From contig NZ_LMDN01000002.1 of the NCBI RefSeq assembly GCF_001425085.1, forward strand, positions 521,796 to 585,795: a stretch of 64,000 bases of DNA, written 5' to 3'. Position numbers and translations under genes: made by a program. Under the pieces are notes generated by a model. That model saw only the letters and a list, made by a program, of their open reading frames with translations. It was not told where the DNA came from and ran no database searches. The stretch's first letter is position 1. Every line of letters begins with the position of its first letter. This DNA comes from Leifsonia sp. Root4 (GTDB lineage Bacteria > Actinomycetota > Actinomycetes > Actinomycetales > Microbacteriaceae). Positions 6,417 to 40,668 of the stretch are shown here, in pieces.

Positions 6417-8764
6417 TAGAGTGTGACCTTTCCGTCGATCGAGGTGATGATCTTGCCACCGGCACGGCGTGCGCCGAATGCGTGCGCGGCCTCGCTCGTG
6501 ATGCTGATGCCGTCGTCGTCGCCGCTGACGGTGAACAGGGCGGCGGTACCGTCGAGCGGGTTCGCGACCTCGACGGTGCGCGTGCCGTTGAATCCGGGGT
6601 AGACGGTCAGAAGTGCGCCATCGGTGTAGTCGTAGTCCGGGCGGTCGTGGCGAGCGCCGGTGACGAGGACGGCCCCCTCCCTCACCCACAGCGGGATGCT
6701 GTCAAAGGCGTGCGTCTCGCGGCGCCAGGTGGGGCCGGTGACCCGCTCCCCGGTGAGATAGTTGGTCCACGTGCCTGCCGGCAGGTAGTACTGCACGTCG
6801 CCGGCGGCGCTGAACACCGGGGCGACAAGTAGCTCCCCCCCGAGCAGGTACTGCCGATCGAGGTAATCGGTCGCCGGATCGTCGCCGAACTCGAGCTGCA
6901 TCGGGCGCATGAACGGGATGCCGCGGCGGTGCGCCTCGAGCCCGACCTGGTAGAGGTACGGCATCAACTCGAGCTTCAGGGTCGTGAAACGGCGCGTGAC
7001 CTCGACCGCACTCTGCCCAGCCGGTTCACTGCCGTCGTCGAACAGCCACGGCACACGGTAGCTCGTCGAGCCGTGCAGGCGGGAGTGGCTGGAGAGCAGG
7101 CCGAATGCCAGCCAGCGCTTGAACACGGCGGAATCCGGCATCCCCTCGAATCCGCCGATGTCGTGGCTCCAATAGCCGAAACCGCTGAACGCCAGCGAGA
7201 GTCCGCCGCGCAGTGTCTCGGCCATCGACTCGAAGCTCGACGAGTTGTCTCCGCCCCAGTGCACCGGCTGCATCTGCCCGCCGACGGTGGCAGAGCGCGC
7301 GAAGAGCACGGCATCGCCCTCGCCCCGGTGCTCCTGGAGCACTTCGAACACGGCCTTGTTGTAGAGCTGAGAGTAGAGGTTGTGCATCACGAGCGGTGAT
7401 GAACCGTCATGCCAGACGACATCGGTGGGAATGCGCTCGCCGAAGTCGGTCTTGATGGCGTCGACGCCCTGGTTGAACAGGTGGCGGAGCTTGTCTTGGA
7501 ACCAGCTGACGGCATCCGGGTTCGTGAAGTCGACGAGGCCCATACCCGCCTGCCAGAAGTCCCACTGCCAAACATCGCCGTTGGGCTTGGTGACGAGGTA
7601 GCCTGCCTGCTTCGCCTCCTCGAAAATGGGCGCGCGCTGGGCGATGTAGGGATTGATCCATGCGCTGACGTGCAGCTTCTTCTCGTGCAGTCTGTCGAGC
7701 ATGCCCTCGGGGTCCGGAAAGACCCGCGGGTCCCACTCGAAGTCGGTCCAGTTGAACTCCCGCATCCAGAAGCAGTCGAAGTGGAAGACGCTGAGCGGCA
7801 GCTCGCGCTCGGCCATGCCGTCGATGAAGCTCGTGACGGTCGCCTCGTCGTATTGCGTCGTGAAGGACGTCGAGAGCCACAAACCATACGACCAGGCCGG
7901 CACGCGGGCCGGCCGACCGGTGAGCCGGGTGTACCGCTCGAGGATCTCCTTCTGGCTGGGGCCATAGATCACCAGATATTCGAGGGTCTCCCCCGCCACC
8001 GAGAATTGCACCTCCTCGACCGATTCCGTTCCGACCTCGAATGAAACGTGCTCAGGGTGGTTGACGAGTACGCCGTAGCCGCGGTTCGTCAGATAAAAGG
8101 GAATGTTCTTGTACGACTGTTCACTTGAGGTGCCACCATCGGCGTTCCAAATGTCGATTGTCTGTCCGTTTTTCACGAGAGGTCCGAAGCGTTCACCGAG
8201 TCCGTAGACGAGCTCGCCGACTCCGAGCGAGAGTCGCCCGTGCACATAGCGGGATGCCGGGGCCAGACCGGTCGTCGTCACGCCGGACACACCGGCGGGC
8301 TCGGCGGCGATCGGCGCGCCCGCGTCCAAGCTGAGATAGCCGATGGACTTGTGACCGCTGCTGGTCAGGGTCTGCCCGTTGGCCTCGAAACTCAAATTCC
8401 ATGGAGCTCCCTGGGCAATGCGCGCCGTGAGGGGGCCAGCGCTCACCGTGCCGCCAGCCTCGCCAACAGCGACTATGCCGTGGCCCGGCTCCGCTCCCAC
8501 GAGCTCGAAGCCCTGGCTCGAGAGGCCCCCGAGTTTCTTCTCGACTCGCACACGGATGACGCCATCCAACGGAGAGGACAGGCTGACCGTCAACAGTGGG
8601 CGGTTCAGAACGTCGCCACGACGCTCGATGACCTTGGTCGGTGCCGAGATGCGCAACACATCCGTGCCGCTCGCGTCATTGTGCGCTTCGATGTCATACG
8701 CCTCTTGCGCGTAGAGGGCATCGACGCCGGGCCGCACTTGCCAGAAGCCATCGGTGAATTTCAT
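6416..8764 (-). CDS. yicI: Glycoside hydrolase family 31 alpha-xylosidase (YicI/XylS type)
   Basis: 782 residues, close to E. coli YicI (772 from memory), with long stretches that look nearly identical in motif. The nucleophile is Asp440 in [10 protein letters not shown] and the acid/base is Asp506 in [12 protein letters not shown]. The neighbouring segment [14 protein letters not shown] and [12 protein letters not shown] are typical of the alpha-xylosidase branch. It removes alpha-1,6-xylose from the non-reducing end of xyloglucan oligosaccharides (isoprimeverose units) and acts in the cytoplasm. The ATG overlaps the GH95 stop (ATGA), so translation is coupled. The longer upstream frame is the GH95 3' end in another frame. 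Confidence 0.95.
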
Positions 8765-11115
8765 GCGGTGTCGCTTTCGTCGAAATCGGTACTGCTGAGT
8801 CGGATGCCGCTGGTATCGATGAGGCGGTGCGTTGTGCGGCCGGCATAGCGGATGCGCGCCTGAACGGGTGCGCCGCGCGCGCGCAGCGTTGCCGAACGCA
8901 AAGCGCCGTCGGCCCACTCGATGTCAACGAGCACCCCCGGCCTCGCCACGAAGCCGGTCACACTGCCAGATCGCAGTTCGGTCGGAAGAGCGGGCAAGAG
9001 GCTGATTGTGCCGTCATGGCTCTGCAACAACGCCTCGGCGAGCACGGCGGTGAAGCCGAGGTTGCCATCAATCTGGAACGGTGGATGAGCCGCGAAGAGG
9101 TTCGGGTAGAGCCCGCCCGCGAACGGTCCTGCGCCCGTCTCGGCCGGGCGGAACACGAGGCGGAGCAAATCCGAGACCTTGTCGGCCCGGCCGAGGCGAG
9201 CCCACAGTGCCAACTTCCAGCACAGCGACCAGCCCGTCGAGTCATCGCCTCGATCGACGAGGCTTTGTTCTGCCGCCAGGCGGACGGCCGCATCAGCGAC
9301 GACGCCTCCCGGGAACAGGGAATAGAGGTGGCTGAGGTGGCGATGGTGTGGATCAGCTGCGGGCGCGTCGTCTGCCCACTCGCTGATTCCCCGCTTCGAT
9401 CCGAGCGCAGGTGCGTCCGGCATCGCGTCGAGTCGCTCGCCGACCTCACGCACGAACGCCAGGTCTTCGATTCGATCCGCGGCGCTCCGCTCGGCCGCGG
9501 TGCTGAGCACTGTCTGGAACAACTCTCTGAGCAGAGAGATGTCCATCGTGGTCGAGGTGCTGAGCGATGCGGTGCGCCCATCGGGGCACAGGTAGCGGTT
9601 CTCGGGAGAGGTCGATGGCGAGGTGGCCCAGCCGCCGTCTGGCAGCCGCACCATCCAGTCCAGCGCGAATTCGGCCGCCCCACGGAGCACCGGCCAGAAA
9701 CGCGTGGCGAGGAGCGGCCCGCCGCCGAAGGCCTCCCGCTCGCGCAAGTGGCGGATCAGCCACGGCCCACCCATCGGCCAGAACGCCCATGCCGGATCGC
9801 CCGTGCCACCGCCTGCGGGAGCGGTGAAGCCCCAGGCGTCGGAGTTGTGATGCACGACCCAGCCCCTGGCCCCGTAGAGCCGGCGCGCCGTGTCGCGTCC
9901 GCGCTCGGCGAGCGCCTCGATGAAGTCGAACAGCGGCTCGGCCGTCTCGGGCAGATTGGCGACATCCGCGCCCCAGTAGTTCATCTGCAGATTGATGTTC
10001 GTGGTGTAGTTCGAGCTCCACGGGGGTTGCATCTGCTCATTCCAGATTCCCTGCAGAGTGGCCGGAAGGCCGCCAGCGCGTGAGCTGGCGATCAGCAGAT
10101 ATCGACCGTAGTCAAAGAGAAGTGCGGCGAGCGCCGGGTCTGCGACGAGGCTGCCGCCCTCGTGGCCGGCGGCCACGGCGACTCTGGCGTCGCTGCTGGC
10201 GTTCGGGGCGCCGGACGGCTCGCCGAGCGAGATCGAGACACGGTCGAAGAGGGCACGGTGGTCGGCAATGTGCTCGGCGAGAACGATCGCCGACCCGGCC
10301 GCGATGGCCGCGTCGATCCGCAGCTCAGCCGCCATCTCGGCGTCACGGGCGGTGCCGACGGTCGTTTGGCCGATGCCGGCGTAACTCGTTCCGGTAGCGA
10401 TGAAGAGCACGACACGGTTCCCGGTGGATCCCGTGGCAGGGCCCGCCGATTCGGTGACGACGCGCGTGACGATGGCGGCCTCAAGGCTTGCGCCCGGTTC
10501 ATCGGACCAGCTCGCCGCCGGAAAGCGCGTCTCATGTCCGGGTGCGACATCGGATGGGAGACGGAGCCAGAGCGCTCCGTCTCGTCGCCCGAGTTCACGC
10601 AGCTGGCTGTGAATCTCGACGGCGGGAACGATGCCATCCGGCAAGCCGTCGATCACATGCATGAGCACCCCGTGGGGTTTGGAGACGAGGGTCGTCTGAA
10701 CGAGCGCATCGCTCGTATCGGCGTTCGTGCTGACGGTGTGCACCGCAGAGCCGAGGTCAAGGGTTCGGCGGTATCCCGTCGTGGAGCTGGCCGGCAGGCG
10801 GAGCGTCACCCGTCCGAGCGGAAGATACGCCTGGCTGTAGTCCGACTGCATCGCTTGTACAGCGCGCTCGGCGTCGATCGGCCGGCCGGCGCCAATCAGG
10901 GTGCGGGCCTCTTCGAGCAGTCGCGCGGCGTCTTCCGGCCCGACCCCGCCTTGGCGACTTTCGCTGGCGGGGCTGCCGGACCATGCCGTCTCGTCGTTCA
11001 GATCAAAGCGCACAACGTCCGCGCCACCCCAGCACATAGCGCCGAGCGTGCCGTTGCCAAGCGGTAGCGCCTCAAGCCAGAGCGCCGCTGGGGAGTCATA
11101 GCTGAGTGCGCTCAC
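8761..11115 (-). CDS. Glycoside hydrolase family 95 (alpha-L-fucosidase / alpha-L-galactosidase)
   Basis: 784 residues with the GH95 layout: N-terminal beta domain (LPLGNGTLGAMCWGG near residue 17), an (alpha/alpha)6 barrel and a C-terminal beta domain. Residues matching the catalytic set of Bifidobacterium AfcA are present: Asn373/Asn375 in TTNINLQMNYWG, Glu505 in STSPENRY and Asp683 in QIDGNLG. GH95 enzymes remove alpha-1,2-linked L-fucose (or L-galactose) by inversion; on xyloglucan this is the outermost sugar. No signal peptide is seen. The start codon is GTG, 3 bp after the permease stop, so it is part of the transporter operon. Confidence 0.93.
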   Translation of the reverse strand: MSALSYDSPAALWLEALPLGNGTLGAMCWGGADVVRFDLNDETAWSGSPASESRQGGVGPEDAARLLEEARTLIGAGRPIDAERAVQAMQSDYSQAYLPLGRVTLRLPASSTTGYRRTLDLGSAVHTVSTNADTSDALVQTTLVSKPHGVLMHVIDGLPDGIVPAVEIHSQLRELGRRDGALWLRLPSDVAPGHETRFPAASWSDEPGASLEAAIVTRVVTESAGPATGSTGNRVVLFIATGTSYAGIGQTTVGTARDAEMAAELRIDAAIAAGSAIVLAEHIADHRALFDRVSISLGEPSGAPNASSDARVAVAAGHEGGSLVADPALAALLFDYGRYLLIASSRAGGLPATLQGIWNEQMQPPWSSNYTTNINLQMNYWGADVANLPETAEPLFDFIEALAERGRDTARRLYGARGWVVHHNSDAWGFTAPAGGGTGDPAWAFWPMGGPWLIRHLREREAFGGGPLLATRFWPVLRGAAEFALDWMVRLPDGGWATSPSTSPENRYLCPDGRTASLSTSTTMDISLLRELFQTVLSTAAERSAADRIEDLAFVREVGERLDAMPDAPALGSKRGISEWADDAPAADPHHRHLSHLYSLFPGGVVADAAVRLAAEQSLVDRGDDSTGWSLCWKLALWARLGRADKVSDLLRLVFRPAETGAGPFAGGLYPNLFAAHPPFQIDGNLGFTAVLAEALLQSHDGTISLLPALPTELRSGSVTGFVARPGVLVDIEWADGALRSATLRARGAPVQARIRYAGRTTHRLIDTSGIRLSSTDFDESDTA

Positions 11116-15397: not shown

Positions 15398-17437
15398 ACG
15401 GCGTGACTCACGCAGCACGCGCACGGCCCCGGCCGCAATCGTGACGCTATGCGGGTGCTCCTCGCCACCCAGCAGATCGAAACCGCCGAGCTCCACCGTG
15501 ATGGACGCGGCTGAATGATTGAGCAGGAACAGGTACGAGTGCGTGTCTGCGACGCGCCTCACGGCCTCGAGTCCCGGCGCGACGGGAACGCTCGCGTGTA
15601 CGCCCGCGGCGTTGAGCAGCCGGCCGACGAGCTCGTCGATTCCGTCCTGGTCGAGGCGGGTGGAGACGTACCAGGCCTGGCCGTCACCGACCTCGCGGCG
15701 GGTGATTGCGCTCGAGCCGGCCAGTTGGCCGGTCTCGTACCACGCAACGGTCTCGCTCTCGTCGGCGTGCACTTTCTCTGACCATGTGTTGGCCCGCCAG
15801 CTGATGCCCTCCCCGTCGCCGCGCAGCGTGACCGTCTCGCCGTCCTGCACGGTGAAGAACTCCTCACCGAAGACACCGAGCATGTCTCTGAACGCGCCGG
15901 GGTAGCCCCCGGCACGCACCCGGTTCGTCTCGTCAACGATGCCGGAGAGGTAGGTGACCAGCACAACCGCGCCACGTGCGGCGGCTGCGGCTACCGATCT
16001 GGCATCCGCGTCGCTCACAAGGAAGAGCGCCGGAACGATCACGATGTCATAACGCGAGAGATCGGTCCATGGTGGAACGACATCGCTGAGGATGCCGCGG
16101 TTGAATAACGCTCGGTGATATTCGCGCGCCGCGTGCGACGGCGGAAGATCATGGTGGGGCTTCTCTCCCGAGCGCCAAGCCCAACCGGCCTCATCGTCGA
16201 CGAGGATGGCCACGCGCGCGGCCTCGACGAGACTGCCGGCAACCTCACCGATGGCAGCCAAGATGCCACCGAGCTCGCATACCTCCCGGAATACCTTGCT
16301 TCGCTCACCGGCATGGGGCACCATCGCGGAGTGAAACTGCTCGGCCCCCGCCGTCGACGCGCGCCATTGGAAGAACATGACGCTGTCAGAACCTCGGGCG
16401 ACATGGGCGAGGCTGTTGCGCACGAGCTCGCCCGGATCCTTGGAACGATTGACACTCTGCCAGTTGACCGCGCTCGTGGAGTGCTCCATCAGCATCCACG
16501 GCCTCCCGGTGTCAAGTCCGCGCATCCGGTCGGCGCTGAAGGCGAGCTCCTGTTCACGCTGCGGGTCGGCCGCGAGAGAGTAATGGTCATTCGCGAGAAC
16601 GTCCATGTGAGGAGCCCAGCGGGCGTAGTCCACCACGTCCGGCCCTTGGGCGACCATGAAGTTCGTTGTGATCATGTGCTCAGGCGAGTGCAGTCGGATC
16701 AGATCGCGCTCGGCGAGAAAGTGCTCGAGCAGCGCGTCAGAGGAAAAACGGTCGAAGTCCAGCACGAGTGCCGGATTGGGTGCCGACTCGCTGTCACGCG
16801 GGGGAAGAATCTCGGCGAAGCTGCCGTAGCGATGCCCCCAGAACGCCGTGCCCCACGCCTGGTTCAACCGGTCGATCGTGCCGTGGCGCTCGGTGAGCCA
16901 GCGCCGGAAGTGCGCGGCAGAGGCATCGCAATAGCAATGCCGATTACCGCCACCGAGCTCGTTGCTGACGTGCCACATGCGCACGGCCGGGTGCTGCGCG
17001 TAGCGCTCGGCGATGACGTCGACGATGCGCATGGCGTACTCCCGCCAGACCGGCGAGCTTGGGCACCACCCGAGCCGACCGCCCTGGGAGTAATGCACCC
17101 CCTCCCGCGAGGTGGGCACGATTTCCGGGTGCTTCTGCTGCAGCCAAATCGGGGGGCTTGCCGTTGGCGTCGCGAGATCGATGGCTATGCCGGCCTCATA
17201 CAGCAGCCCGACGACCTCGTCGAGGGCGCTGAAGTCATAGCTCCCATCGGCCGTTTCGATGCTCCCCCACGAGAAGACACCGAGGGTGATCATGGTCACG
17301 CCCGCCTCGCGCATAAGCCGAATGTCGTCACGCCACACCTCTGGCGCCCATTGCTCCGGGTTGTAATCCCCGCCATAGGCCAGACCGCGAATCGGCCAAA
17401 CGAAGGGTCGTCTCGTGGGCACGGCGGGAATCGACAT
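15377..17437 (-). CDS. Glycoside hydrolase family 42 beta-galactosidase
   Basis: 686 residues from the ATG giving MSIPAVPTRRPF, preceded by GAGAGGA; 16 extra upstream codons are in frame but lack family similarity. The TIM-barrel holds acid/base Glu160 in SNELGGG and nucleophile Glu318 in LMEHSTS. A cysteine group, HCYCDA near residue 165, matches the metal site of many GH42 enzymes. A trimerisation domain and a small C-terminal beta domain follow. It releases terminal beta-galactose, here plausibly the galactosyl unit exposed after GH95 removes fucose. Cytoplasmic. It converges on and overlaps the esterase gene by 21 bp. Confidence 0.93.
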   Translation of the reverse strand: MSIPAVPTRRPFVWPIRGLAYGGDYNPEQWAPEVWRDDIRLMREAGVTMITLGVFSWGSIETADGSYDFSALDEVVGLLYEAGIAIDLATPTASPPIWLQQKHPEIVPTSREGVHYSQGGRLGWCPSSPVWREYAMRIVDVIAERYAQHPAVRMWHVSNELGGGNRHCYCDASAAHFRRWLTERHGTIDRLNQAWGTAFWGHRYGSFAEILPPRDSESAPNPALVLDFDRFSSDALLEHFLAERDLIRLHSPEHMITTNFMVAQGPDVVDYARWAPHMDVLANDHYSLAADPQREQELAFSADRMRGLDTGRPWMLMEHSTSAVNWQSVNRSKDPGELVRNSLAHVARGSDSVMFFQWRASTAGAEQFHSAMVPHAGERSKVFREVCELGGILAAIGEVAGSLVEAARVAILVDDEAGWAWRSGEKPHHDLPPSHAAREYHRALFNRGILSDVVPPWTDLSRYDIVIVPALFLVSDADARSVAAAAARGAVVLVTYLSGIVDETNRVRAGGYPGAFRDMLGVFGEEFFTVQDGETVTLRGDGEGISWRANTWSEKVHADESETVAWYETGQLAGSSAITRREVGDGQAWYVSTRLDQDGIDELVGRLLNAAGVHASVPVAPGLEAVRRVADTHSYLFLLNHSAASITVELGGFDLLGGEEHPHSVTIAAGAVRVLRESRRSGEALR

Positions 17438-32119: not shown

Positions 32120-32142
32120 CCGCCGCCGCTCTCAGGCGGCGG
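32120..32142. terminator. Shared hairpin between convergent genes
   Basis: CCGCCGCC (32120-32127) and GGCGGCGG (32135-32142) form an 8-bp GC stem with a 7-nt loop, immediately after the reductase stop and overlapping the last codons of the alcohol dehydrogenase. No U-tract on either side, so a GC-type terminator at best. Confidence 0.5.
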
Positions 32143-33262
32143 CCCCGTCGAGCGCGATGATTCGGCGCACCACGCGACCCTCCTCCAGGGCGTCCAGTGC
32201 CTCGTTGACCTCATCGAGCGTCACGGTGTCGCTGTGCAACAGTTCCATCGGAAGCAGGCCGGCCCGCCACAGCTCGATGTAGGCGGGGATGTCACGAGCG
32301 GGTACGGCGTCGCCCATGTAGGAGCCGAGCAACCGCTTGCCCATTCCGGCGAACTGCAACGCCTGAACGTCGAGCTGCTGTTCCGGATGCGGCAGGCCCA
32401 CGGACACGAGGGCCCCGCCGCGCGTGACGAGCGCGAGCGCGGCCTCCATCACTCGAGCACTGCCGACGGCCTCCACTGCGAGGTCAACGCCGTCACCGGC
32501 GTGCTCGGCGACGAGGGCCGCAGCCTGCTCTGGCGTTCCGACCGCGCTCGCGCCGACGGCGAGGGCCAGTGCGTGCTTGTCGGTGTTGGGGTCGATCGCG
32601 ATCACCCGCGTGCCATCGATCTGCGCCGCGGCCATGATGGCGGTGAGGCCGACGGCGCCGAGTCCGAACACGATGAGGGACTGACCCGGCGTCATCCGGC
32701 CGGTGTTGAGCACCGCCCCCATACCGGTCAGGGCGGCGCACCCGAACATGGCCGCGATGTCAAACGGCACGTCCTTGTCGATCACGACGAGGGACTCGGC
32801 GGCGACGACGGCGTAGTCGGCGAAGCCGGAGACGCCGAGGTGGTGGTTCACACGGCTGTTGGCGCCATCGCGCAGCACGGCGTCGCCGTGCAGCAGGCCG
32901 CCGGAGGCATTGGCCTCGGCGGCACGGTAGCAGAGCGCGGGTCTGCCGGCCGAGCAGGCCCGGCAGTCGCCACAACTGGGCACGAACACGAGGACGACGT
33001 GGTCACCGGGACTGACGCCCTCGACACCGTCTCCGACGACGTCGACAATTCCGGCCGCCTCGTGGCCGATCGCCATGGGGAGCGGGCGCGGGCGCGATCC
33101 GTTGACGACGGACAGGTCGGAGTGGCAGAGGCTGGCTCGAACGATGCGCACTCCGACCTCACCAGCGCGCGGCGCCGGAGCGCTGAGTTCTTCGATGCTG
33201 AGTGGGCGCGAGTCGGCATAGGGGCGCGGCAAACCCGCCGCACGCAGCACGGCACTACGCAT
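32132..33262 (-). CDS. Zinc-dependent alcohol dehydrogenase (MDR family, class III-like)
   Basis: 376 residues. Catalytic-zinc residues Cys in RASLCHSD and His in IGHEAAG, the structural-zinc cluster CGDCRACSAGRPALC, and the NAD-binding FGLGAVGL are all present. It oxidises an alcohol (or reduces an aldehyde) with NAD(P). It is the last of seven genes transcribed from 40,457 and overlaps the ABM gene by 8 bp, so the likely substrate is a metabolite of the glycerol-type pathway. Confidence 0.92.
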   Translation of the reverse strand: MRSAVLRAAGLPRPYADSRPLSIEELSAPAPRAGEVGVRIVRASLCHSDLSVVNGSRPRPLPMAIGHEAAGIVDVVGDGVEGVSPGDHVVLVFVPSCGDCRACSAGRPALCYRAAEANASGGLLHGDAVLRDGANSRVNHHLGVSGFADYAVVAAESLVVIDKDVPFDIAAMFGCAALTGMGAVLNTGRMTPGQSLIVFGLGAVGLTAIMAAAQIDGTRVIAIDPNTDKHALALAVGASAVGTPEQAAALVAEHAGDGVDLAVEAVGSARVMEAALALVTRGGALVSVGLPHPEQQLDVQALQFAGMGKRLLGSYMGDAVPARDIPAYIELWRAGLLPMELLHSDTVTLDEVNEALDALEEGRVVRRIIALDGAAA

Positions 33263-33560
33263 CCGGGCTTGCCTTCATCTTCACGACGACACGGTTCTCG
33301 AGCAGCGGGATGATCGTTCCGAGGCCGATGGTCTCGAAGTGCTCGGAGCTGCGGTGGGCATCGAATCCCGCCGCATCCGTGTAGCTCTCGACGATGACGA
33401 TCTCGTCGGGGTTCTCGACCCCGCGATAGAACTCGTAGCTGAGGTTGGCAGGCTCGGTACGGCTGGCGACCGCGAGCTCGGCGAGGTGCCCGAGAACCGT
33501 CTCGGTCTGGCCTTCCTGCGGGTAGTAGCGGGCGATGACCTGATAGAAATCGGCAGACAC
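33255..33560 (-). CDS. Antibiotic biosynthesis monooxygenase (ABM) domain protein
   Basis: 101 residues, one ferredoxin-like ABM domain (YYPQEGQTETVLGHLAEL; LSYEFYRGVENPDEIVIVES, with the conserved YE/H pattern near SSEHF). Start is GTG with AGGAG 7 nt upstream. Members are dimeric, cofactor-free and often act on quinones or autoinducers; here it may protect against or process reactive products of the operon's flavoenzymes (inference). Overlaps the dehydrogenase by 8 bp. Confidence 0.88.
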   Translation of the reverse strand: MSADFYQVIARYYPQEGQTETVLGHLAELAVASRTEPANLSYEFYRGVENPDEIVIVESYTDAAGFDAHRSSEHFETIGLGTIIPLLENRVVVKMKASPDA

Positions 33561-33600: not shown

Positions 33601-34182
33601 CTAGCGCCGCGTGGTGTTCCAGAGGGCGACGTCGCTCGTCGAGACGGCTTTCGCGCCGCCCTTGATCGCCGCGACGACGTCCTCGGTGCTCGTCACGAAG
33701 CCGGCGGCCACATAGGGCGACAGCCTGGCGAGCTCGGTCGCGGAGATCGAGGAGATCACCGGCCACGGCATGAGCTGCATCAGGTGCGGCTTGCTCTGCT
33801 GCACGGCGTTGATGCTGCGCGGCAGCGTGGATCGGTCGGTCACGAACACCTTCTGCATCGTCACCATGCCGAGTGCGTTGGCGCGCTGGATCAGCGCGGT
33901 GCGGGTGGTGATGAGACCCGGCGTGCCGATCTTGCGGAGGTATTCGACGCCGCCGCGGTCCTGGGCGAGGCCGTCGCAGTTGTCGATGTTGACGAAGACG
34001 AACTTGCCTGCGGCCGCAGTGCGGGTGACGACATTCTCCATGTCTGGCAGCGCGACGTTCGCGACGATTCCGACCGGGCACGGCCCAGAGAGGAATTCGG
34101 CGAGCGCGTCGGTGCCGTAGAGCGACGCCATCACGGGATGACGGTAGAGCTTCTCGTCGAGGGAACGTGGGAGCTCTGGCAT
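33601..34182 (-). CDS. glpP: Glycerol-3-phosphate-responsive antiterminator (GlpP family)
   Basis: 193 residues from the ATG of MPELPRSLDEKLYRHP; GTG at 34221 and ATG at 34215 are in-frame alternatives. The G3P_antiterm TIM-barrel is clear: VNIDNCDGLAQDRGGVEYL, GLITTRTALIQRANALGM, VQQSKPHLMQLMPW and AAGFVTSTEDVVAAIKGG. In Bacillus subtilis, GlpP with glycerol 3-phosphate binds glp leader RNA and prevents termination. Here the gene is fifth in an operon with glpD and a kinase, and the operon leader contains a terminator-like hairpin, so it probably controls its own operon. Confidence 0.93.
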   Translation of the reverse strand: MPELPRSLDEKLYRHPVMASLYGTDALAEFLSGPCPVGIVANVALPDMENVVTRTAAAGKFVFVNIDNCDGLAQDRGGVEYLRKIGTPGLITTRTALIQRANALGMVTMQKVFVTDRSTLPRSINAVQQSKPHLMQLMPWPVISSISATELARLSPYVAAGFVTSTEDVVAAIKGGAKAVSTSDVALWNTTRR

Positions 34183-34226
34183 GGATGCATCACCTTTGCT
34201 TGCGACCGCAGGCATACTCACTGCGA

Positions 34227-35756
34227 CTAGGCCTCGAGGCCCAGTTTACCGGGGTTGAGCAGGTTCTTCGGGTCGAGCGCGGCCTTCACCGCACGCAGCA
34301 CGGCGAAGCCTGCGCCGAGGGACTCCTCCATGTACGGCGCGCGCAGCAGCCCGACGCCGTGGTGGTGGCTGAGCGTTGCGTTGTGCTTCAGGATGACGGC
34401 GTTGGCGGCATCCCAGGCGGCGCGATACCACGCAGCGCGCTCGTCGACCGCGACGTCGCCGCGCAGCGAGAAGTAGAGGCAGGCGCCGTCGACGTACGCG
34501 TGTGACTGGTGCGCGGAACCAGCGAGCGTGCCCGGCACCGCGTTGATGGCGGCCACGACCTCGTCATAGATGGCGGGGAGGTCGCGCCAGCGCCCCGTCA
34601 TCTCCAGGGTGTCCGCCACGAAGCCGGGGCTGCGCTTGAATCCCTCCGCGCTCTTGCCGGTGAGGTAGCGGGTGTCGAGCCAGCGCTCGAAGATCACGGC
34701 GTCGTCGAGCTTGGCGCCCGTCTCGGCACAGACTCGCTCGCTGATCGCGAGCACGGCGTCCACGATCTCCTGCGCACCCTCGTCCGCGATGAGCAGCACG
34801 TTCTGATCGGCGAGGTCGAACTGGAGCCCGCTCTCGAGGTTGTCGTAGAGACGCAGCGCTGCGGGGTTCGCCCCCTGCTGCATGATCTGGCGGCAGGCCT
34901 CCAGGCCGTCGGCGAAGCTCGCGAAGCCGTAGGCGATCGCGCGGCCGTAGTCCGGCAGTCGGTGCAGCTTCAGACGCACGGTGGTGATCACACCGAGCGT
35001 GCCCTCCGAACCGATGATGAGCTGAAGCAGATCGGGGCCGACGGCAGCCGCCGAGGTCTCCCCGACCGTGATCAGTGAGCCGTCGGCCAGCACGACATCC
35101 ATGCCGTAGACCATGTCCTCGATCTTGCCGTAGCGAGTCGAGAGCTGGCCGGCACCGCGGCAGGCGACCCAGCCGCCCACCGTGCTGATGGCGTATGAGG
35201 ACGGCCAGTGGCCCATCGTCATCCCGAAGTCCTTCTGCACCATCTCCTCGAAGATGTCGCCGAACATTCCGGCCTCGACCTCGACGATCTGGCTGGCCTC
35301 ATCGAAGCTCACGAACTTGTTCATCTCGCAGACGTCAAGCACGATGCCGCCGCGCACGGGGAGTGCTGAGCCCGTCACGTTGCTGCGTCCGGCAGAGACG
35401 GTCACCGGCACGTTGGCGGCATCCGCGATGCGCATCACGGCCTGCACCTGCTCCGTCGTCGACACCTTGGCGATCACGGCCGTCGGGGTGGCCGGCGTGC
35501 CCGCGGTCTCACCGATCATGCTTCCGGCCCACCAGTCGCGGGTGCCGGCGATGACGTCAGCGGTCTCGGTCACGAGCTCGTCGACGGCAGCGGCCAGCTG
35601 GGCCAGCACATCGGCCGAGACGACGACGGCGTCCTTCTGGAAGTACGCCTCACCACCGACCTTCTCGATGCCCGCGGCGTAGCCGGGCTGCGTCGGCGCT
35701 CCGACAACGTAGTTGCCGCGGTTGTATCCGCGCTTGACGGCTTCCTTGCTGATCAT
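34227..35756 (-). CDS. FAD-binding oxidoreductase, alkylglycerone-phosphate synthase (AGPS)-like
   Basis: 509 residues with an FAD_binding_4 (PCMH) domain (residues about 70-250; VSAGRSNVTGSALP, then GAGQLSTRYGKIEDMV) and an FAD-oxidase C-terminal domain ending LDPKNLLNPGKLG. The run SHHHGVGLLR matches the active-site histidine motif of AGPS, which swaps acyl for alkyl groups on dihydroxyacetone phosphate. It overlaps the glpD stop/start by 4 bp. Since GlpD produces DHAP, a DHAP-related or glycerol-ether substrate is conceivable; ordinary lactate/glycolate oxidase chemistry is the alternative. Confidence 0.85.
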   Translation of the reverse strand: MISKEAVKRGYNRGNYVVGAPTQPGYAAGIEKVGGEAYFQKDAVVVSADVLAQLAAAVDELVTETADVIAGTRDWWAGSMIGETAGTPATPTAVIAKVSTTEQVQAVMRIADAANVPVTVSAGRSNVTGSALPVRGGIVLDVCEMNKFVSFDEASQIVEVEAGMFGDIFEEMVQKDFGMTMGHWPSSYAISTVGGWVACRGAGQLSTRYGKIEDMVYGMDVVLADGSLITVGETSAAAVGPDLLQLIIGSEGTLGVITTVRLKLHRLPDYGRAIAYGFASFADGLEACRQIMQQGANPAALRLYDNLESGLQFDLADQNVLLIADEGAQEIVDAVLAISERVCAETGAKLDDAVIFERWLDTRYLTGKSAEGFKRSPGFVADTLEMTGRWRDLPAIYDEVVAAINAVPGTLAGSAHQSHAYVDGACLYFSLRGDVAVDERAAWYRAAWDAANAVILKHNATLSHHHGVGLLRAPYMEESLGAGFAVLRAVKAALDPKNLLNPGKLGLEA

Positions 35757-37426
35757 TGTGATTCTCCCATCAGGATTGCGCGTTCATGCGCTGTTGCGGT
35801 TGTGTATGCCGACACCTGGGCGTCGACCTCGGCGTCGCTGAGTCCCAGCTCGGCCTGAAGCAGTTGCCCGACCCGGCCGGCTGCGGCAGCCGATGCGTCG
35901 CGCGCCATGAGTCTGGCCCTGGTGCGGCGCGACAGGATGTCGTCGACGCTGCGTGCCATCTCGTGTCTGGCCGAGTACACGACCTCCGCCTCGAGGTATG
36001 GCAGGCCGTCGACGATCGGTGCCGCGAGCTCCGGGTTGTTGCCGAGGATGTCGGTGACGAACTGTGCCTCGTTTCCGTACCGCTCGCCGAGGTGGGCGGC
36101 GAGTCCACCGGATGCCACGACGGCTTCTCCGTCGTATCCGGCGGCCCCGAGCAGGTACGCGTTCTTGGTCATGCAGCGACGACGTTGGCCGATGACCCGC
36201 TGTGCCGCGTCGATCGTCTGCTCGGCCATGTGACGTGACGTGGTGAGCTTGCCGCCGACCACCGTGACGAGTCCGTCGTGGTCCACGCGGATCTCGTGCT
36301 TCCGCTTGACGTCGATGGTCTTGCCGCCGGGCGGTGCGACGAGCGGGCGGCACCCGCCGATGCTGCCGACGACGTCATCCGCGGAGAGATCGGTCTTCAG
36401 CGCGGAGTGCGCCCCCTCGATCAGGAAGTCCATCTCCTCGCGGGTGCAGTTCACATCGTCGAGGTCGCCCTGGTAATCCTCGTCGGTCGTGCCGAGGTAG
36501 GCGGTGTCGCCCCAGCGCGTGATGGTCGCACGGCGGTTGCGGCCGGGAACGGGGATGGTCACGGTGCAGTCGTTGCGGATCTTCATCCACGGCACGGCGA
36601 TGTGCACGCCCTTGGCCGGGCGGATGTTCGGAGCGTCCGCGTCCTTGCCCGCACCGTTCCAGTCGCGCAGCCAGGCGCCTGTCGCGATCACGACCACGCG
36701 GGCGGATGCCGCCACCTCACGTCCGTCGATTTCCGCGATGATTCCGCTGACCTTGCCGCCGGAGCGGGTCACCTCGGTCACCTTGGCGCCGTTCAGCACG
36801 ACGGCGCCGTGGTGGGCGGCCGTGCGTGCCAGCGCGAGGGTGAGCCGCGCGTCATCGGCGCGGGCGTCGTAGTACATGTAGCCGCCGTCGAGGTTCTCGC
36901 CCTTGAAGGTGGAGCAGTGGGAGAGCACCTCCTCCTTGGAGAGTTTCTGGTGCAGAACGCCCTCGCGCCAGCCGCCGGCGATGTCGTAGGTCCAGAGCAG
37001 ACTCTCGAAGCCGGCTGCGAGGCGGCGGTCGAAGACGCCATCGTGCGCGAGCACCGGGAAGAGGAACGGCAACCGCTGCACCAGGTGTTTGGCGTTCTTG
37101 CGCAGACGCTGGCGTTCCAACAGCGAATGCCGAACCAACGGCAGGTTGCCCTGCTCGATGTAGCGCAGTCCGCCGTGGATCATCTTGGATGACTTCGAGG
37201 AGGTTCCTGAGGCGAAGTCGTCCTTCTCGAGCAGGGCGACGCTGTATCCGCGAAGCGCGGCGTCCATGGCCGCATACGCCCCGGTGACGCCTCCGCCGAC
37301 AATGATCATGTCGAAGCGGGCGCCGTCGATGCGCGCGACGTTGTCTCGGCGACTCAGCGGGAGCGCGTCGACCCTGGTCATCAGCGCGCGGGCTGTATCG
37401 GTCTTGCGGGCGGGCAATCCAACCAT
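35753..37426 (-). CDS. glpD: Aerobic glycerol-3-phosphate dehydrogenase
   Basis: 557 residues. N-terminal FAD Rossmann motif VGGGVTGAYAAMDAALRG, family signature SSKSSKMIHGGLRY, GSIGGCRPL, and a C-terminal DAO_C helical domain with ILSRRTRARL. It oxidises sn-glycerol 3-phosphate to DHAP, passing electrons to the quinone pool at the inner membrane face. It sits between the kinase (14 bp upstream) and the AGPS-like gene (4-bp overlap), in an operon with its own GlpP. Confidence 0.95.
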   Translation of the reverse strand: MVGLPARKTDTARALMTRVDALPLSRRDNVARIDGARFDMIIVGGGVTGAYAAMDAALRGYSVALLEKDDFASGTSSKSSKMIHGGLRYIEQGNLPLVRHSLLERQRLRKNAKHLVQRLPFLFPVLAHDGVFDRRLAAGFESLLWTYDIAGGWREGVLHQKLSKEEVLSHCSTFKGENLDGGYMYYDARADDARLTLALARTAAHHGAVVLNGAKVTEVTRSGGKVSGIIAEIDGREVAASARVVVIATGAWLRDWNGAGKDADAPNIRPAKGVHIAVPWMKIRNDCTVTIPVPGRNRRATITRWGDTAYLGTTDEDYQGDLDDVNCTREEMDFLIEGAHSALKTDLSADDVVGSIGGCRPLVAPPGGKTIDVKRKHEIRVDHDGLVTVVGGKLTTSRHMAEQTIDAAQRVIGQRRRCMTKNAYLLGAAGYDGEAVVASGGLAAHLGERYGNEAQFVTDILGNNPELAAPIVDGLPYLEAEVVYSARHEMARSVDDILSRRTRARLMARDASAAAAGRVGQLLQAELGLSDAEVDAQVSAYTTATAHERAILMGESQ

Positions 37427-37440
37427 TGTGTGGTTCTCTC

Positions 37441-38961
37441 CTACTTACTGTGTGCTGAGCTCGGAATGAGCGAAAGGTCTGCCGCGATGCGCGCGTTCCA
37501 GGCGCTGCGCCGCTCGAGGCGCTCGTCGGCGCTGATGCGTGGCTCGAAGATGTCGCCGCTGCCCATCGACGCGGCGGCCTCCTCGAGCGAGTTCCAGAGC
37601 AGCCCGTCGCTGCCGGCCAGGAAGGCTGCGCCGCGGAGGCTCGCCCCCTCGGATGCCGGCAGCCGGCGCATCGGGACACCGACGAGGTCGGCCTGCATCT
37701 GAATGAGTGGGTCACTGGCCGACATGCCGCCACCGACGACGATCTCGGTGATCGCGGTGCCGGCGACCTGCTCGTCCGCCTCCGCGCTGGAGGCGACCGA
37801 GTGGGCGATGCCCTCCAGAACGGCGTACGCGATCTCCGGCAAGGTCGTCGACATCGAGAAGCCGCTCAGCGAGGCCTTGGCTTTGGGCTCCATGACCGGC
37901 ATCCGAAGCCCAGTGAGGGCCGGAACGAACATGACCCCGTTGGCGTTGGCGACCGTCGCCGCGAGCTCGCTGATCTTCTTGGACGACTCGAACCAGCCCA
38001 GCGTGCCGCAGACCCAGTCCAGTGCGGAGCCGGTGGTCGCCGTGAAGGTCTCGATGGTGAAGACGGAGCGGTTGTGGCGGCGCCAGCCGACGAGGGTGAG
38101 TGCACCGTCGTAGAGGCCGGGGTTGGCCGGGGCATCCGGGCCGATCACGAGATCCACGAAGCTTCCCGTGCCGTGCACGCACATGGCCTGGCCCTTGCGC
38201 AGGCAGCCCAGACCGATCGTCCCGGCGTGCTGATCGCCGGCCGCGGCGAGGATCGGGATCTCGATGCCGAGCAGCTCGGCGTTCGTCACCCCGAAGTCGT
38301 CGGCGTCCTGACGCAGCTCCGGCAGCAGCTCAGCGGGGAAGCCGAGGGCGCTGATCCAGTCGTACTCATAGTCGTGCGCGGCAAGATTGTACGCGCCGGC
38401 CGATGTCGCATTGGTCGAGGTGGCCGCGTAGATGTGATCGCGCGACAGGCTCCACAGCAGCCAGGTCTCGATCGTGCCGAAGCCGAGGCGTCCCGCGCGG
38501 TGGGCCTCTGCCACCTCGGGAGTCTCCCGCAGATGGTGGGCGGCCCACAGATAGGGGGATCGCACGCCGGTTGGGCGGCCGACCGTGGTGACCAGATGCT
38601 CGCTCCACTCGGCGCTCAGGGCCGCGAGTTCATCGGAGTATCTGCTGTCCTGCCACACCATGGCCGGCACAATGGCGCGCCCGGTCACGGTGTCCCACAG
38701 CACCGTCGTCGCCCGTTGCGTGGCGATGGCGAGGCCGACGAGCGTGACCCCGTTGCCTGCCGCGCGGGCGATGACCGCGCGGCAGGCGTCGAGTGTCTTC
38801 TCGAGAATCGCGTTGGCATCCTGTTCGACGACACCGGCGACGGGTGTCTGTACCCGGAGCGGGCGGTACTCGAGAGCGTGGACCAGGCCGTCGGCCGTGA
38901 CCCACGCGGCACGAGTGCCTGTCGTTCCTTCATCAATGCTGAGAATCGCGGGGATTGTCAT
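37441..38961 (-). CDS. FGGY-family kinase, glycerol kinase-like
   Basis: 506 residues of the FGGY fold. Landmarks: SIDEGTTGTRA (phosphate loop), AIATQRATTVLWD and VWQDSRYSDEL (glycerol-kinase-like), AAGDQHAGTIGLG, HGTGSFVDLV and IVVGGGMSASDPLIQ. Position before glpD suggests phosphorylation of glycerol or a close polyol. It is clearly diverged from canonical GlpK (for example ATQRATTV in place of NQRETTV), so the substrate could differ. Start ATG lies 23 bp after the MFS stop. Confidence 0.88.
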   Translation of the reverse strand: MTIPAILSIDEGTTGTRAAWVTADGLVHALEYRPLRVQTPVAGVVEQDANAILEKTLDACRAVIARAAGNGVTLVGLAIATQRATTVLWDTVTGRAIVPAMVWQDSRYSDELAALSAEWSEHLVTTVGRPTGVRSPYLWAAHHLRETPEVAEAHRAGRLGFGTIETWLLWSLSRDHIYAATSTNATSAGAYNLAAHDYEYDWISALGFPAELLPELRQDADDFGVTNAELLGIEIPILAAAGDQHAGTIGLGCLRKGQAMCVHGTGSFVDLVIGPDAPANPGLYDGALTLVGWRRHNRSVFTIETFTATTGSALDWVCGTLGWFESSKKISELAATVANANGVMFVPALTGLRMPVMEPKAKASLSGFSMSTTLPEIAYAVLEGIAHSVASSAEADEQVAGTAITEIVVGGGMSASDPLIQMQADLVGVPMRRLPASEGASLRGAAFLAGSDGLLWNSLEEAAASMGSGDIFEPRISADERLERRSAWNARIAADLSLIPSSAHSK

Positions 38962-38984: not shown

Positions 38985-40457
38985 TTACTTGCTGCTGATC
39001 AGTTCGGCGGCCTTGGCCTCTGCCGCCCTGGCTGCAACGGCCTGCGCCGCGGCGTCGCTCTTGAACTGCGGGGCGTCGGTCTCCTCATCCGGGCTGACCG
39101 CTGCACGGGTCGGGTCCCACTTGATGATCGAGCAGATGATGAACGCGATCAGCGGCACGACCGAGAGGATGAGGAACGTCGGGCCGAGGCCGATCCCCTC
39201 CTTGAGCAGCGGGAACACCAGCAGTCCGAGGGCGGCTCCCATGCTGCCGATGGCACCGATGATTCCGTTGGCTCCCGCCCGCAGCTCGCTGCGGAAGGAG
39301 AGCGTGGAGAGGCTCTTGCCGTTCGCGCCCGGACCGGCCGAGTGGAACAGGATGAACAGCGACGGCACGACGAAGGCCAGCCAGATCGGCATGCTCTCGT
39401 AGAAGAAGCCCAGCACGACCAGCATGAGGAACACGGCGCCGAAGCCGAAAGCGGATGCCCGGCGCAGACCGAACTTCTTGCCGATGACGGGCGACATGAA
39501 GCCGCCGAGGATTCCGAAGAGGTTGAACACGAGCGCGCCGAGTGTGGCGACGACGAAGTCGGCACCGAACAAGGTGAGGCTGATGATCGGCAGGTACCAG
39601 CCGACCGCGAAGTACTGGATCGACTGCGCCATCTGCACAGTGGCGGCCAGGACGGTGCGCTGACGGTAGGTGCCACGGAAGATCAGCGCGATGTTCGCGA
39701 AGCCCTTCGTTGCCTGGTTGAGAACGGGGACGCGCTGGTCGACCGGTGCCGCGACGAAGGTCTCGCCGTAGATCTTGGTCATCGCCGTTGCGGCGCGTTC
39801 CACCTTCTCCTTGCGGGCGAGCCAGGTGGGGCTCTCCACCATGAAGCTTGCCTGCAGGATCATGAGCACAAGGGCGACGATGCCCGCCGTGCCGACGGCG
39901 TAGCGCCAGATCGCGTCGCCGACGTTCAGGTTGTAGAACATGATCGCCAGCACGAGGTTCGAGCAGACGGCCACGTACCAGATGCCCTGCCAGGTGTTCA
40001 GGCGTGCCTTGAATCGTGCGGGCGTGAACTCGGCGAGCAGCGCCATCGCGATCGCGAAGTCGATTCCGTATGCAGCACCGACGAAGAAGCGGCCGGCGAG
40101 CACCATCTCGAAGCTCGGCGCGAATGCGGCGAGAGCCGCTCCGACGAGTGCAAGGAACTTCGCGAAGATGAGCGGGGGAATGCGACCCCAGCGATCGGCC
40201 ATCCAGCCACCGATCGGGTTGAACACGATGGCGACCCACGATGCGAGGGAGGTGAGGATCGCGACCTGCGTCGCGCTCAGCTCCATGTCGCGTGTCATCG
40301 GCCCGAGGCCCGCGCTCAGCGCTGAGTTCGAGAATGCGTCGAGGAACAACCCGCTGAGTGCGAGCCACCAGATGACTGCTGCGCGCCCACTGATGCGGGG
40401 GCGAGCGTCGATGAATGAGACGACGTCACTGACGCCTCGGATGACAATTGTTGGCAC
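38985..40457 (-). CDS. MFS transporter (sugar/polyol porter type)
   Basis: 490 residues with 12 predicted helices. Start is the GTG reading VPTIVIRGVSD, with AGAGAGG 7 nt upstream; the longer frame belongs to leader RNA. MFS motif A appears as NPIGGWMADRWGRIPP between helices 2 and 3, and a GVMVESPTWL-like segment (FMVESPTWLARKEK) as in sugar porters. The C-terminal tail is Ala/Lys-rich. First gene of the seven-gene operon and so the likely uptake protein for its substrate, in place of a GlpF channel. Confidence 0.92.
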   Translation of the reverse strand: MPTIVIRGVSDVVSFIDARPRISGRAAVIWWLALSGLFLDAFSNSALSAGLGPMTRDMELSATQVAILTSLASWVAIVFNPIGGWMADRWGRIPPLIFAKFLALVGAALAAFAPSFEMVLAGRFFVGAAYGIDFAIAMALLAEFTPARFKARLNTWQGIWYVAVCSNLVLAIMFYNLNVGDAIWRYAVGTAGIVALVLMILQASFMVESPTWLARKEKVERAATAMTKIYGETFVAAPVDQRVPVLNQATKGFANIALIFRGTYRQRTVLAATVQMAQSIQYFAVGWYLPIISLTLFGADFVVATLGALVFNLFGILGGFMSPVIGKKFGLRRASAFGFGAVFLMLVVLGFFYESMPIWLAFVVPSLFILFHSAGPGANGKSLSTLSFRSELRAGANGIIGAIGSMGAALGLLVFPLLKEGIGLGPTFLILSVVPLIAFIICSIIKWDPTRAAVSPDEETDAPQFKSDAAAQAVAARAAEAKAAELISSK

Positions 40458-40466
40458 TGTCCGACC

Positions 40467-40492
40467 TCTCTGTCGGGAAACCCTGTCAGAGA
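40467..40492 (-). promoter_or_regulatory. Alternative leader hairpins around the ribosome binding site
   Basis: In the transcript (minus strand), TCTCTG (40492-40487) can pair with CAGAGA (40472-40467), with a GGG-UUU-CCC inner stem, hiding the Shine-Dalgarno AGAGAGG. A competing hairpin, CCGAC-AGAGAG-GTCGG (40476-40461), instead shows the purines in its loop. The two cannot form together. This could add translational control to the leader; it could also be chance. Confidence 0.45.
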
Positions 40493-40503
40493 ACGCGCCA
40501 AAC

Positions 40504-40556
40504 AAAAAAGAGGGCAAGACGAAGACTCCAACAGGAAGTCTCCAATTCTTAACCCT
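40504..40556 (-). promoter_or_regulatory. Leader intrinsic terminator (putative GlpP-controlled attenuator)
   Basis: Reading the minus strand from 40556: AGGG-uu-AAGA, a GGAGA-c-UUCC stem with UGUU loop, then GGAGUCUUC, UCUU and CCCU (ending 40511), then C and six U (40509-40504). AGGG pairs with CCCU, AAGA with UCUU, and the centre forms a 9-bp hairpin. It starts only a few bases after the predicted transcription start and 47 bp before the first gene. A terminator in the leader, and an antiterminator gene in the operon, make an attenuator the simplest reading. Confidence 0.75.
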
Positions 40557-40566
40557 ATTGAGCGAA

Positions 40567-40595
40567 AGAGTAGCCCGGGCCTCAGCCGAAGTCAA
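40567..40595 (-). promoter_or_regulatory. Promoter of the glycerol-type operon
   Basis: On the minus strand, -35 TTGACT (40595-40590), a 17-bp spacer and -10 TACTCT (40572-40567) make a good housekeeping-sigma promoter. The start would be near 40560, so the leader is about 100 nt and begins with the terminator hairpin. Confidence 0.75.
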
Positions 40596-40632: not shown

Positions 40633-40668
40633 CAGAAACAGCGCCAGTGTGCACTGGCGCTGTTTCTG
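40633..40668 (-). terminator. Terminator after araA
   Basis: Perfect 17-bp arms, CAGAAACAGCGCCAGTG (40633-40649) and its complement (40652-40668), with a 2-nt centre, 25 bp after the araA stop. On the minus strand it is followed by TTTCTG. The repeat is symmetric and could act in both directions, insulating the following operon promoter. Confidence 0.85.

Follow-up and report, generated by a model that had tools for sequence, protein, structure and literature searches.

In the 5′ leader of a seven-gene operon of Leifsonia sp. Root4, the loop and 3′ arm of a terminator-like hairpin (segment B) are complementary to a segment located further downstream (C), and this complementarity, which is the new element here, is compensated across lineages. 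Comparison of related leaders demonstrates, at the level of sequence, the pairings A:B and B:C as well as the conservation of the operon. B appears to have two conserved and mutually exclusive partners, the 5′ arm of the hairpin (A) and C, and there is good support for a conserved leader in which one strand alternates. With moderate confidence, we propose that this leader is a co-transcriptional switch made of four segments, A to D, and set by the GlpP-family protein that the operon itself encodes.

Organization of the operon and of its leader

The window analysed here is a stretch of 64,000 nucleotides of Leifsonia sp. Root4 DNA. On its minus strand, seven co-directional genes follow each other in the order MFS transporter, kinase, GlpD-like dehydrogenase, FAD oxidase, GlpP, ABM-domain protein and alcohol dehydrogenase (Table 1). 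As first annotated, the fifth gene encodes a GlpP-family protein; it is a full-length family match (PF04309, 147 bits against a cut-off of 27, profile positions 1-173), with 3kts and 1vkf as relatives by sequence in the PDB. As to glycerol genes, the first gene of the operon is an MFS transporter, and the kinase (325 bits against the curated GlpK cut-off of 590) and the dehydrogenase (281 bits against the curated GlpD cut-off of 360) are homologues that fall below the equivalog cut-offs.

Table 1. Features of the leader and genes of the operon, with positions in the window
Feature	Position	Strand	Remarks
Promoter TTGACT-17-TACTCT	40567-40595	-	-35, 40595-40590; -10, 40572-40567
Hairpin A:B (P1) with U6	40504-40556	-	intrinsic-terminator-like
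P1 outer 5′ part AGGG	40556-40553	-	
P1 outer 5′ part AAGA	40550-40547	-	
Segment A, 5′ arm GGAGACUUCC	40534-40543	-	putative GlpP-binding strand; AGAC-type arm conserved
P1 loop UGUU	40533-40530	-	
Segment B, loop and 3′ arm	40521-40536	-	takes in the last bases of A
P1 outer 3′ part UCUU	40519-40516	-	
P1 outer 3′ part CCCU	40514-40511	-	
C, then six U	U at 40509-40504	-	directly 3′ of CCCU
Segment C, CUCUGACAGGG	40481-40491	-	complement of B and partly of D
Hairpin P2 (C:D)	40448-40505	-	predicted MFE; UCUCUG/CAGAGA, GGCGC/GUGCC, UUGUU/AACAA
Shine-Dalgarno GAGAGG, within segment D	40465-40470	-	CAGAGAGG invariant in 12/12 leaders
Gene 1, MFS transporter	38985-40457	-	GTG start
Gene 2, FGGY kinase	37441-38961	-	GlpK-like, below cut-off
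Gene 3, FAD dehydrogenase	35753-37426	-	GlpD-like, below cut-off
Gene 4, FAD-linked oxidase	34227-35756	-	
Gene 5, GlpP-family protein (PF04309)	33601-34221	-	type-1 clade
Gene 6, ABM-domain protein	33255-33560	-	
Gene 7, zinc alcohol dehydrogenase	32132-33262	-	

The -35/-10 pair, the two-part hairpin, the closing CCCU and the C followed by six U that the first-pass annotation had pointed out are all present. The last U is separated from the GTG by 46 bases. The central stem of P1, announced as 9 bp, comprises ten pairs in the MFE structure, including a closing U-G, plus one bulged U. The folding energy of P1 (56 nt) is -21.4 kcal/mol, with a z score of -4.0 against dinucleotide shuffles. A fold of 131 nt gave a z score of only -0.75, a misleading value because that segment starts upstream of the -10 box and includes untranscribed DNA. 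A consensus scan of the window called neither the promoter nor the terminator of the leader. The promoter was missed because it matches 8 of 12 positions, one short of the threshold of 9, and the terminator probably because its interrupted stem does not fit the rule of the scan.

Taken alone, the window promoter is unremarkable, as 8% of shuffled upstream stretches score equally well, and its assignment is supported not by its own score but by the spacing kept in relatives. In 33 of 35 leaders (the exceptions being L067 and L086), the best-scoring -10 box ends 20-27 nt before the AGAC of the hairpin, which places P1 at the 5′ end of the transcript. Compared with shuffles, the promoter is strong in 20 beta-proteobacterial leaders, where no more than 1% of the shuffles do equally well; in 12 Micrococcales/Nocardia leaders, where this share is 0 to 43%, it is mostly not strong. 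That P1 might be the terminator of the upstream gene was ruled out, since it lies 3′ of the promoter and stays with the MFS gene in relatives. The upstream gene (araA-like, named by eye) is followed at about 40639-40662 by an inverted repeat, AACAGCGCCAGUG..CACUGGCGCUGUU, which is likely to be its terminator.

Two partners for one strand

A GlpP search of genome contigs yielded 34 loci. According to tblastn, 32 of them (L032-L062 and L064) carry MFS, kinase, GlpD-like, FAD oxidase and GlpP genes in identical order; the exceptions are L031 (Pseudoclavibacter), without the front of the operon, and L063, a short contig. Additional copies of the operon occur in genomes G129, G003, G265 and G358, in G752, G706 and G745 (4 of 394 genomes of the class at E 1e-20, the window's own being counted), in five further members of the G752 family (7 of 200 genomes searched), and in Burkholderia, Cupriavidus and Arthrobacter records. 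The leader recurs 5′ of this gene series in Microbacteriaceae, Arthrobacter, Nocardia, large-genome actinobacteria and Burkholderiales. An apical hairpin with the pattern (R)AGAYYNYC-loop UGUN/UGGC-G is common to the leaders 5′ of MFS, L085 giving the worst fit. Pseudoclavibacter helvolus (L031 / L066) has kept the type-1 GlpP, ABM and ADH genes; MFS, kinase and dehydrogenase genes were not found next to these three, and the FAD oxidase is matched in its C-terminal part only, by two frames that overlap. In Burkholderia arboris (L087, about 1450-2890), the leader and the MFS start are found well 5′ of the main MFS match (from 2887), and the MFS gene seems to be interrupted by an insertion.

Leader search R1 missed the beta leaders as well as L084 and L085, and anchored segments were therefore used for the cross-lineage tests; the near-identical Achromobacter and Cupriavidus leaders were for the most part left out of the A:B count, the B:C z scores and the swap, accessibility and constrained-folding tests. 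Because MAFFT had displaced the 3′ arm of the beta leaders by a single column (A6), A:B pairs were counted by script according to their level from the loop, the bulge of the window leader being ignored and L085 left out. In the resulting 30 apical hairpins (14 distinct without the loop), 93% of the cells pair, and changes on both sides are found across lineages at 6 of 9 pair levels, for instance U-A/A-U at level 3 or, in L068/L069, C-G/A-U, A-U/G-C and G-C/A-U at levels 5-7. None of 2000 shuffles, which ignore the kinship of the leaders, reached the pairing fraction or the double-change cells, 28 reached the number of double-changed pairs and 88 the pair types. Sliding the strands out of register lowered pairing to 40-63%.

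For helix 1, paired cells amount to 98.6% in the set of 22 beta leaders, 20 of them distinct; in the beta alignment of P1 and P2, paired cells and double-changed cells exceed shuffles (0/500), whereas the two double-changed pairs do not (158/500). The 12 actinobacterial leaders alone show no significant covariation, 65 of 500 shuffles reaching their double-change pairs. Their GGG/CCC pairs never vary and the A-U pair is lost in one of them, so that pairs of the AGGG/CCCU type, whose covariation in related genomes the first-pass annotation had suggested looking for, are silent in this respect. The hairpin itself is conserved with compensatory changes across lineages.

The second partner of B is most easily recognized in the beta leaders, where CCUCUUACAGAA, unchanged in 22/22 and located well 3′ of the hairpin, is the complement of the hairpin loop and 3′ arm (UCUGUAAGA-U-GGUC). 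Actinobacterial leaders have B:C with other letters, most clearly in L037 (CCUGUCGGAGGUU vs GACCUCUGACAGG). L085 has UCCCUGUCAGUGGUC opposite GACCGCUGGCAAGGGA, further versions are found in L084, L086 and L124-L128, and in L068 and L069, which belong to the same genus, B and C differ together. Position 4 of the B loop, outside A:B, varies with C (U-G, C-G, A-U), although this list is made of pairs of the best duplex, and so is biased to pairing, and omits L067 and L034. C is not a mere copy of A, because it also complements the loop (UUACAGA vs UCUGUAA).

In a swap test involving 30 leaders of 11 groups, B gave -19.5 kcal/mol with its own downstream region and -14.5 kcal/mol with those of other groups, and none of 20000 permutations of groups equalled the own-partner energy. 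In 4 of 11 groups (Nocardia, g50, Strep A and f24), the own partner ranked first in its row; in the other rows, the region of a related group or of Nocardia was slightly to clearly better. Related groups being interchangeable, the B:C signal lies between broad blocks. Owing to the start filter of the script, L134 and L136 lie outside the swap, C:D, constrained-fold and U-run sets. Against shuffled downstream regions, the mean z score of B:C in 27 leaders is -3.1, ranging from -0.2 (L068) to -5.9 (L085); that of the window is weak (-1.2). Eleven GlpP-linked leaders of other types, with slightly different segment limits, show no B:C (z -1.3 to +1.6). When A and its 5′ flank (22 nt) were held unpaired and the RNA ended at C, B:C was predicted at 0.82 on average in 30 leaders, against 0.01 in the free RNA and 0.39 with C shuffled. 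Two leaders depart from this behaviour: L067 (0.03, against 0.19 with shuffled C) does no better than its control, and L034 (0.42) is weak and hardly above shuffled C. In both, the best partner of B sits elsewhere.

The pairing of C with D, which would involve the ribosome-binding site and the start codon, is the weakest leg of the model and is weakly supported. The predicted MFE structure of the window leader has P2 covering part of the ribosome-binding site and the GTG, with UCUCUG/CAGAGA and GGCGC/GUGCC at this region. In L084, GUUGUGCCAUC/GAUGGCACAAC pair across the ATG, and in beta leaders CUCUU faces AAGGAG or AAGAGG, in addition to UUGC/GCAA. The stability of P2 relative to shuffles is modest (mean z -1.9, range 0 to -4.3), and swapping reveals poor covariation (own -12.4, swapped -11.3; 848 of 20000 permutations as good), which might be expected where D must remain a Shine-Dalgarno site. 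Further, when 9 nt of A are kept unpaired in the complete leader at equilibrium, C:D mostly persists and the start region hardly opens (+0.03, against +0.02 in the control). Among the predicted MFE structures of 12 leaders, only those of L037 and L038 take up B:C. Most of these 12 structures keep both hairpins, and the CUGU of the P1 loop can pair with ACAG in C; one may therefore imagine that GlpP binds C:D as a second hairpin and that B:C, instead of replacing the two hairpins, links them through a loop-loop contact. We hold this to be highly improbable, as the B:C complementarity generally continues into the P1 stem. For the four-segment switch, the persistence of C:D in the folding of complete leaders means that the model requires GlpP to be on A while A is nascent, and the segments to follow the order A, B, C, D.

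Association with GlpP

PF04309 matches 30 of 398 genomes of the window's family, 16 of them over the cut-off (6 of type 1, 10 of other types). With stricter filters, R1 matches five of the 398, all carriers of type-1 GlpP; these five were also the seeds of R1, so that they speak for specificity and not for discovery. In the sixth type-1 genome, G364, the operon is eroded. In the family of G774 (Cupriavidus), represented by 120 genomes, leader search R2 gave E < 1e-10 in ten, exactly those where PF04309 is over the cut-off, and weak matches (E 0.005-0.099) in four more. Divergent R2 matches (L134-L138, 58-70 bits) include L134, which resembles seed L087. The four genomes with weak matches have no GlpP over the cut-off, and three of these matches (L139, L141 and L142) correspond to ordinary-looking terminators, such as AAAAAGACCAUC..GAUGGUCUUUU, from which it follows that P1 alone can be mimicked.

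As leader and GlpP belong to one operon, their co-occurrence does not separate GlpP from the operon; it would also be observed if the leader were a riboswitch or answered another protein, GlpP acting elsewhere. This possibility appears quite improbable. The conserved part is a short hairpin with a complementary strand, without a large aptamer core. Rfam gave no family at gathering score in the whole window, and for the leader and the loci of four relatives, searched at an E-value threshold, all matches were below gathering and none was convincing. Moreover, 5′ arms similar to A are found in part of the GlpP-linked leaders of Firmicutes, namely those of Cytobacillus (AGAGACUCACG, AGAGACCACG), Planococcus (AGAGACCUC) and Paenibacillus (GGAGAACACG, GGGAGAGCCACG). 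The GAGAC-type likeness, a motif picked by eye, is plain in 3 of 10 Firmicutes/Fusobacteriota records, and GlpP may have its targets elsewhere in several of the others. Control of the leader by GlpP is likely; we infer binding of the protein itself, to segment A, as well as its ligand and the direction of control.

In a tree of 22 GlpP rows, 14 type-1 sequences split from 8 others with 100/100 support, subject to long-branch warnings. Type-1 proteins have Q/E-x-M-P-W/A and a K instead of R, whereas the other rows share E-x-L/M-P-G and (Q/H)R before F/Y-x-x-D; by these residues, the window GlpP lies outside the classical Firmicutes-type subgroup. With these divergent positions, and with kinase and dehydrogenase below the GlpK and GlpD cut-offs, glycerol 3-phosphate is uncertain as the signal. 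The ligand may be another one, and other polyol phosphates are proposed.

Other GlpP-linked hairpins were encountered. A second attenuator, with stem AGAGAACAG..CUGUUCU and a U-run, lies near a Bacillus-like GlpP at seven loci (L070-L076), in leaders of FAD-oxidase operons; in L076, AGAGA is printed outside the stem. It is also present in Streptomyces clavuligerus (L166, about 8735-8785) and was not seen in L077-L079. A stricter pattern retrieved it in 5 of 32 genomes, once each, always among the seven loci. In Klebsiella (L169, 7120-7190), the GlpP-containing gene run begins behind a hairpin, CCCUCAGAGACGCGAGUCUCUGAGGG, with U7. Near the GlpP-family gene of E. coli, five intergenic stretches inspected by eye hold no copy of the present leader. 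On the minus strand of L091 (about 16050-16330), a strong hairpin with a long U run stands directly 5′ of the start of a divergent SDR-like gene, whose leader is a possible target of the GlpP-family protein. We take the E. coli GlpP-family gene to be ygcP and the SDR-like gene to be ygcW.

Proposed switch and its relation to known systems

Fifteen of 30 leaders, comprising all 12 from Micrococcales/Nocardia plus L085, L086 and L124, have at least four U directly after the hairpin. The U-run is absent after the hairpin in L084, in L125-L128 and in all ten beta leaders; Achromobacter has four U inside the 3′ arm, and a weak terminator is conceivable there. By sequence, an intrinsic terminator stands between the promoter and the first gene in the window and in the 12 Micrococcales/Nocardia leaders. 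A simple Bacillus-like antitermination, where GlpP would block the terminator and C and D would have no regulatory role, could account for these 12 U-runs, for the weak B:C of the window and for the start region that equilibrium folding does not open. We nevertheless consider it unlikely, in view of the complementarity of C to the loop and not just to the arm, of the B:C swap test and z scores, and of the ten beta leaders without U-run, even allowing for the four U of Achromobacter. As these ten lack a U-run, antitermination is improbable as a common output; the output probably combines termination and translation in some lineages and is confined to translation in others. The first-pass annotation had read the leader as an attenuator through which the operon controls itself by means of GlpP. 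This is partly supported: an attenuator precedes a GlpP-encoding operon and is conserved and covarying, but the reading, right in direction, is too small in scope, leaving aside B:C, a possible C:D and the beta leaders without U-run.

In the four-segment switch that we favour, the OFF state would have A paired with B, forming the terminator in the window, and in any read-through RNA C:D would conceal the ribosome-binding site and the start codon. In the ON state, ligand-bound GlpP would grip A as it emerges from the polymerase, so that A:B and the terminator could not form; the freed B would take C, D would stay open and the operon, including glpP, would be made. In leaders without a U-run, only the translational output would remain. 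A more specific version, put forward tentatively and with rather more doubt than belief, is that the GlpP-family protein would respond to some polyol phosphate different from glycerol 3-phosphate and drive a four-segment switch, which would couple antitermination to exposure of the start in actinobacteria and act purely on translation in beta-proteobacteria.

According to excerpts of two papers, B. subtilis GlpP with glycerol 3-phosphate disrupts the terminators of three leaders, those of glpD, glpFK and glpT, and stabilises glpD mRNA (PMC9604022, PMC7430163; excerpts of PMC3997798 for the mRNA decay context). The present system resembles these by its GlpP-family protein, a 5′ UTR terminator just 3′ of the promoter, and kinase and GlpD-like genes. 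It differs by its gene set, its GlpP clade, the location of glpP inside the operon, the extra B:C and possible C:D, and the beta leaders without U-run. Attenuators of the trp type alternate between segments 1:2, 2:3 and 3:4. Mutually exclusive neighbours are likewise found here, but 1:2 would be the terminator, 3:4 would conceal the start, and no leader peptide was noticed. LicT, SacY and BglG-type antiterminators exemplify protein-dependent antitermination, as proposed here, with an unrelated protein family; no separate antiterminator hairpin is seen 5′ of the present terminator. The LicT antiterminator is treated in the excerpts of PMC7430163. The type-2 GlpP attenuator (AGAGAACAG..CUGUUCU) is likewise a GlpP-linked leader terminator of the same bacterial family, with another stem sequence, a divergent GlpP and no B:C-like complementarity.

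The open full-text literature covered, subscription papers lying mostly outside this scope, gave no pointer to a GlpP leader outside Firmicutes. In the excerpts of PMC9732521, Streptomyces glycerol genes are under GylR and GlpP is named once, for B. subtilis; term searches in PMC2965389 and PMC2864571 returned no glp or glycerol entry. In this literature, the rules for GlpP RNA targets are poorly defined, and a control mode coupling a four-segment switch to GlpP was not met. One strand with two conserved, covarying partners across two phyla makes the RNA side readable by comparison. If the model is true, GlpP control would reach beyond Firmicutes and gain a translation layer, and these leaders would provide a natural series along which a single switch has shifted its output between termination and translation.
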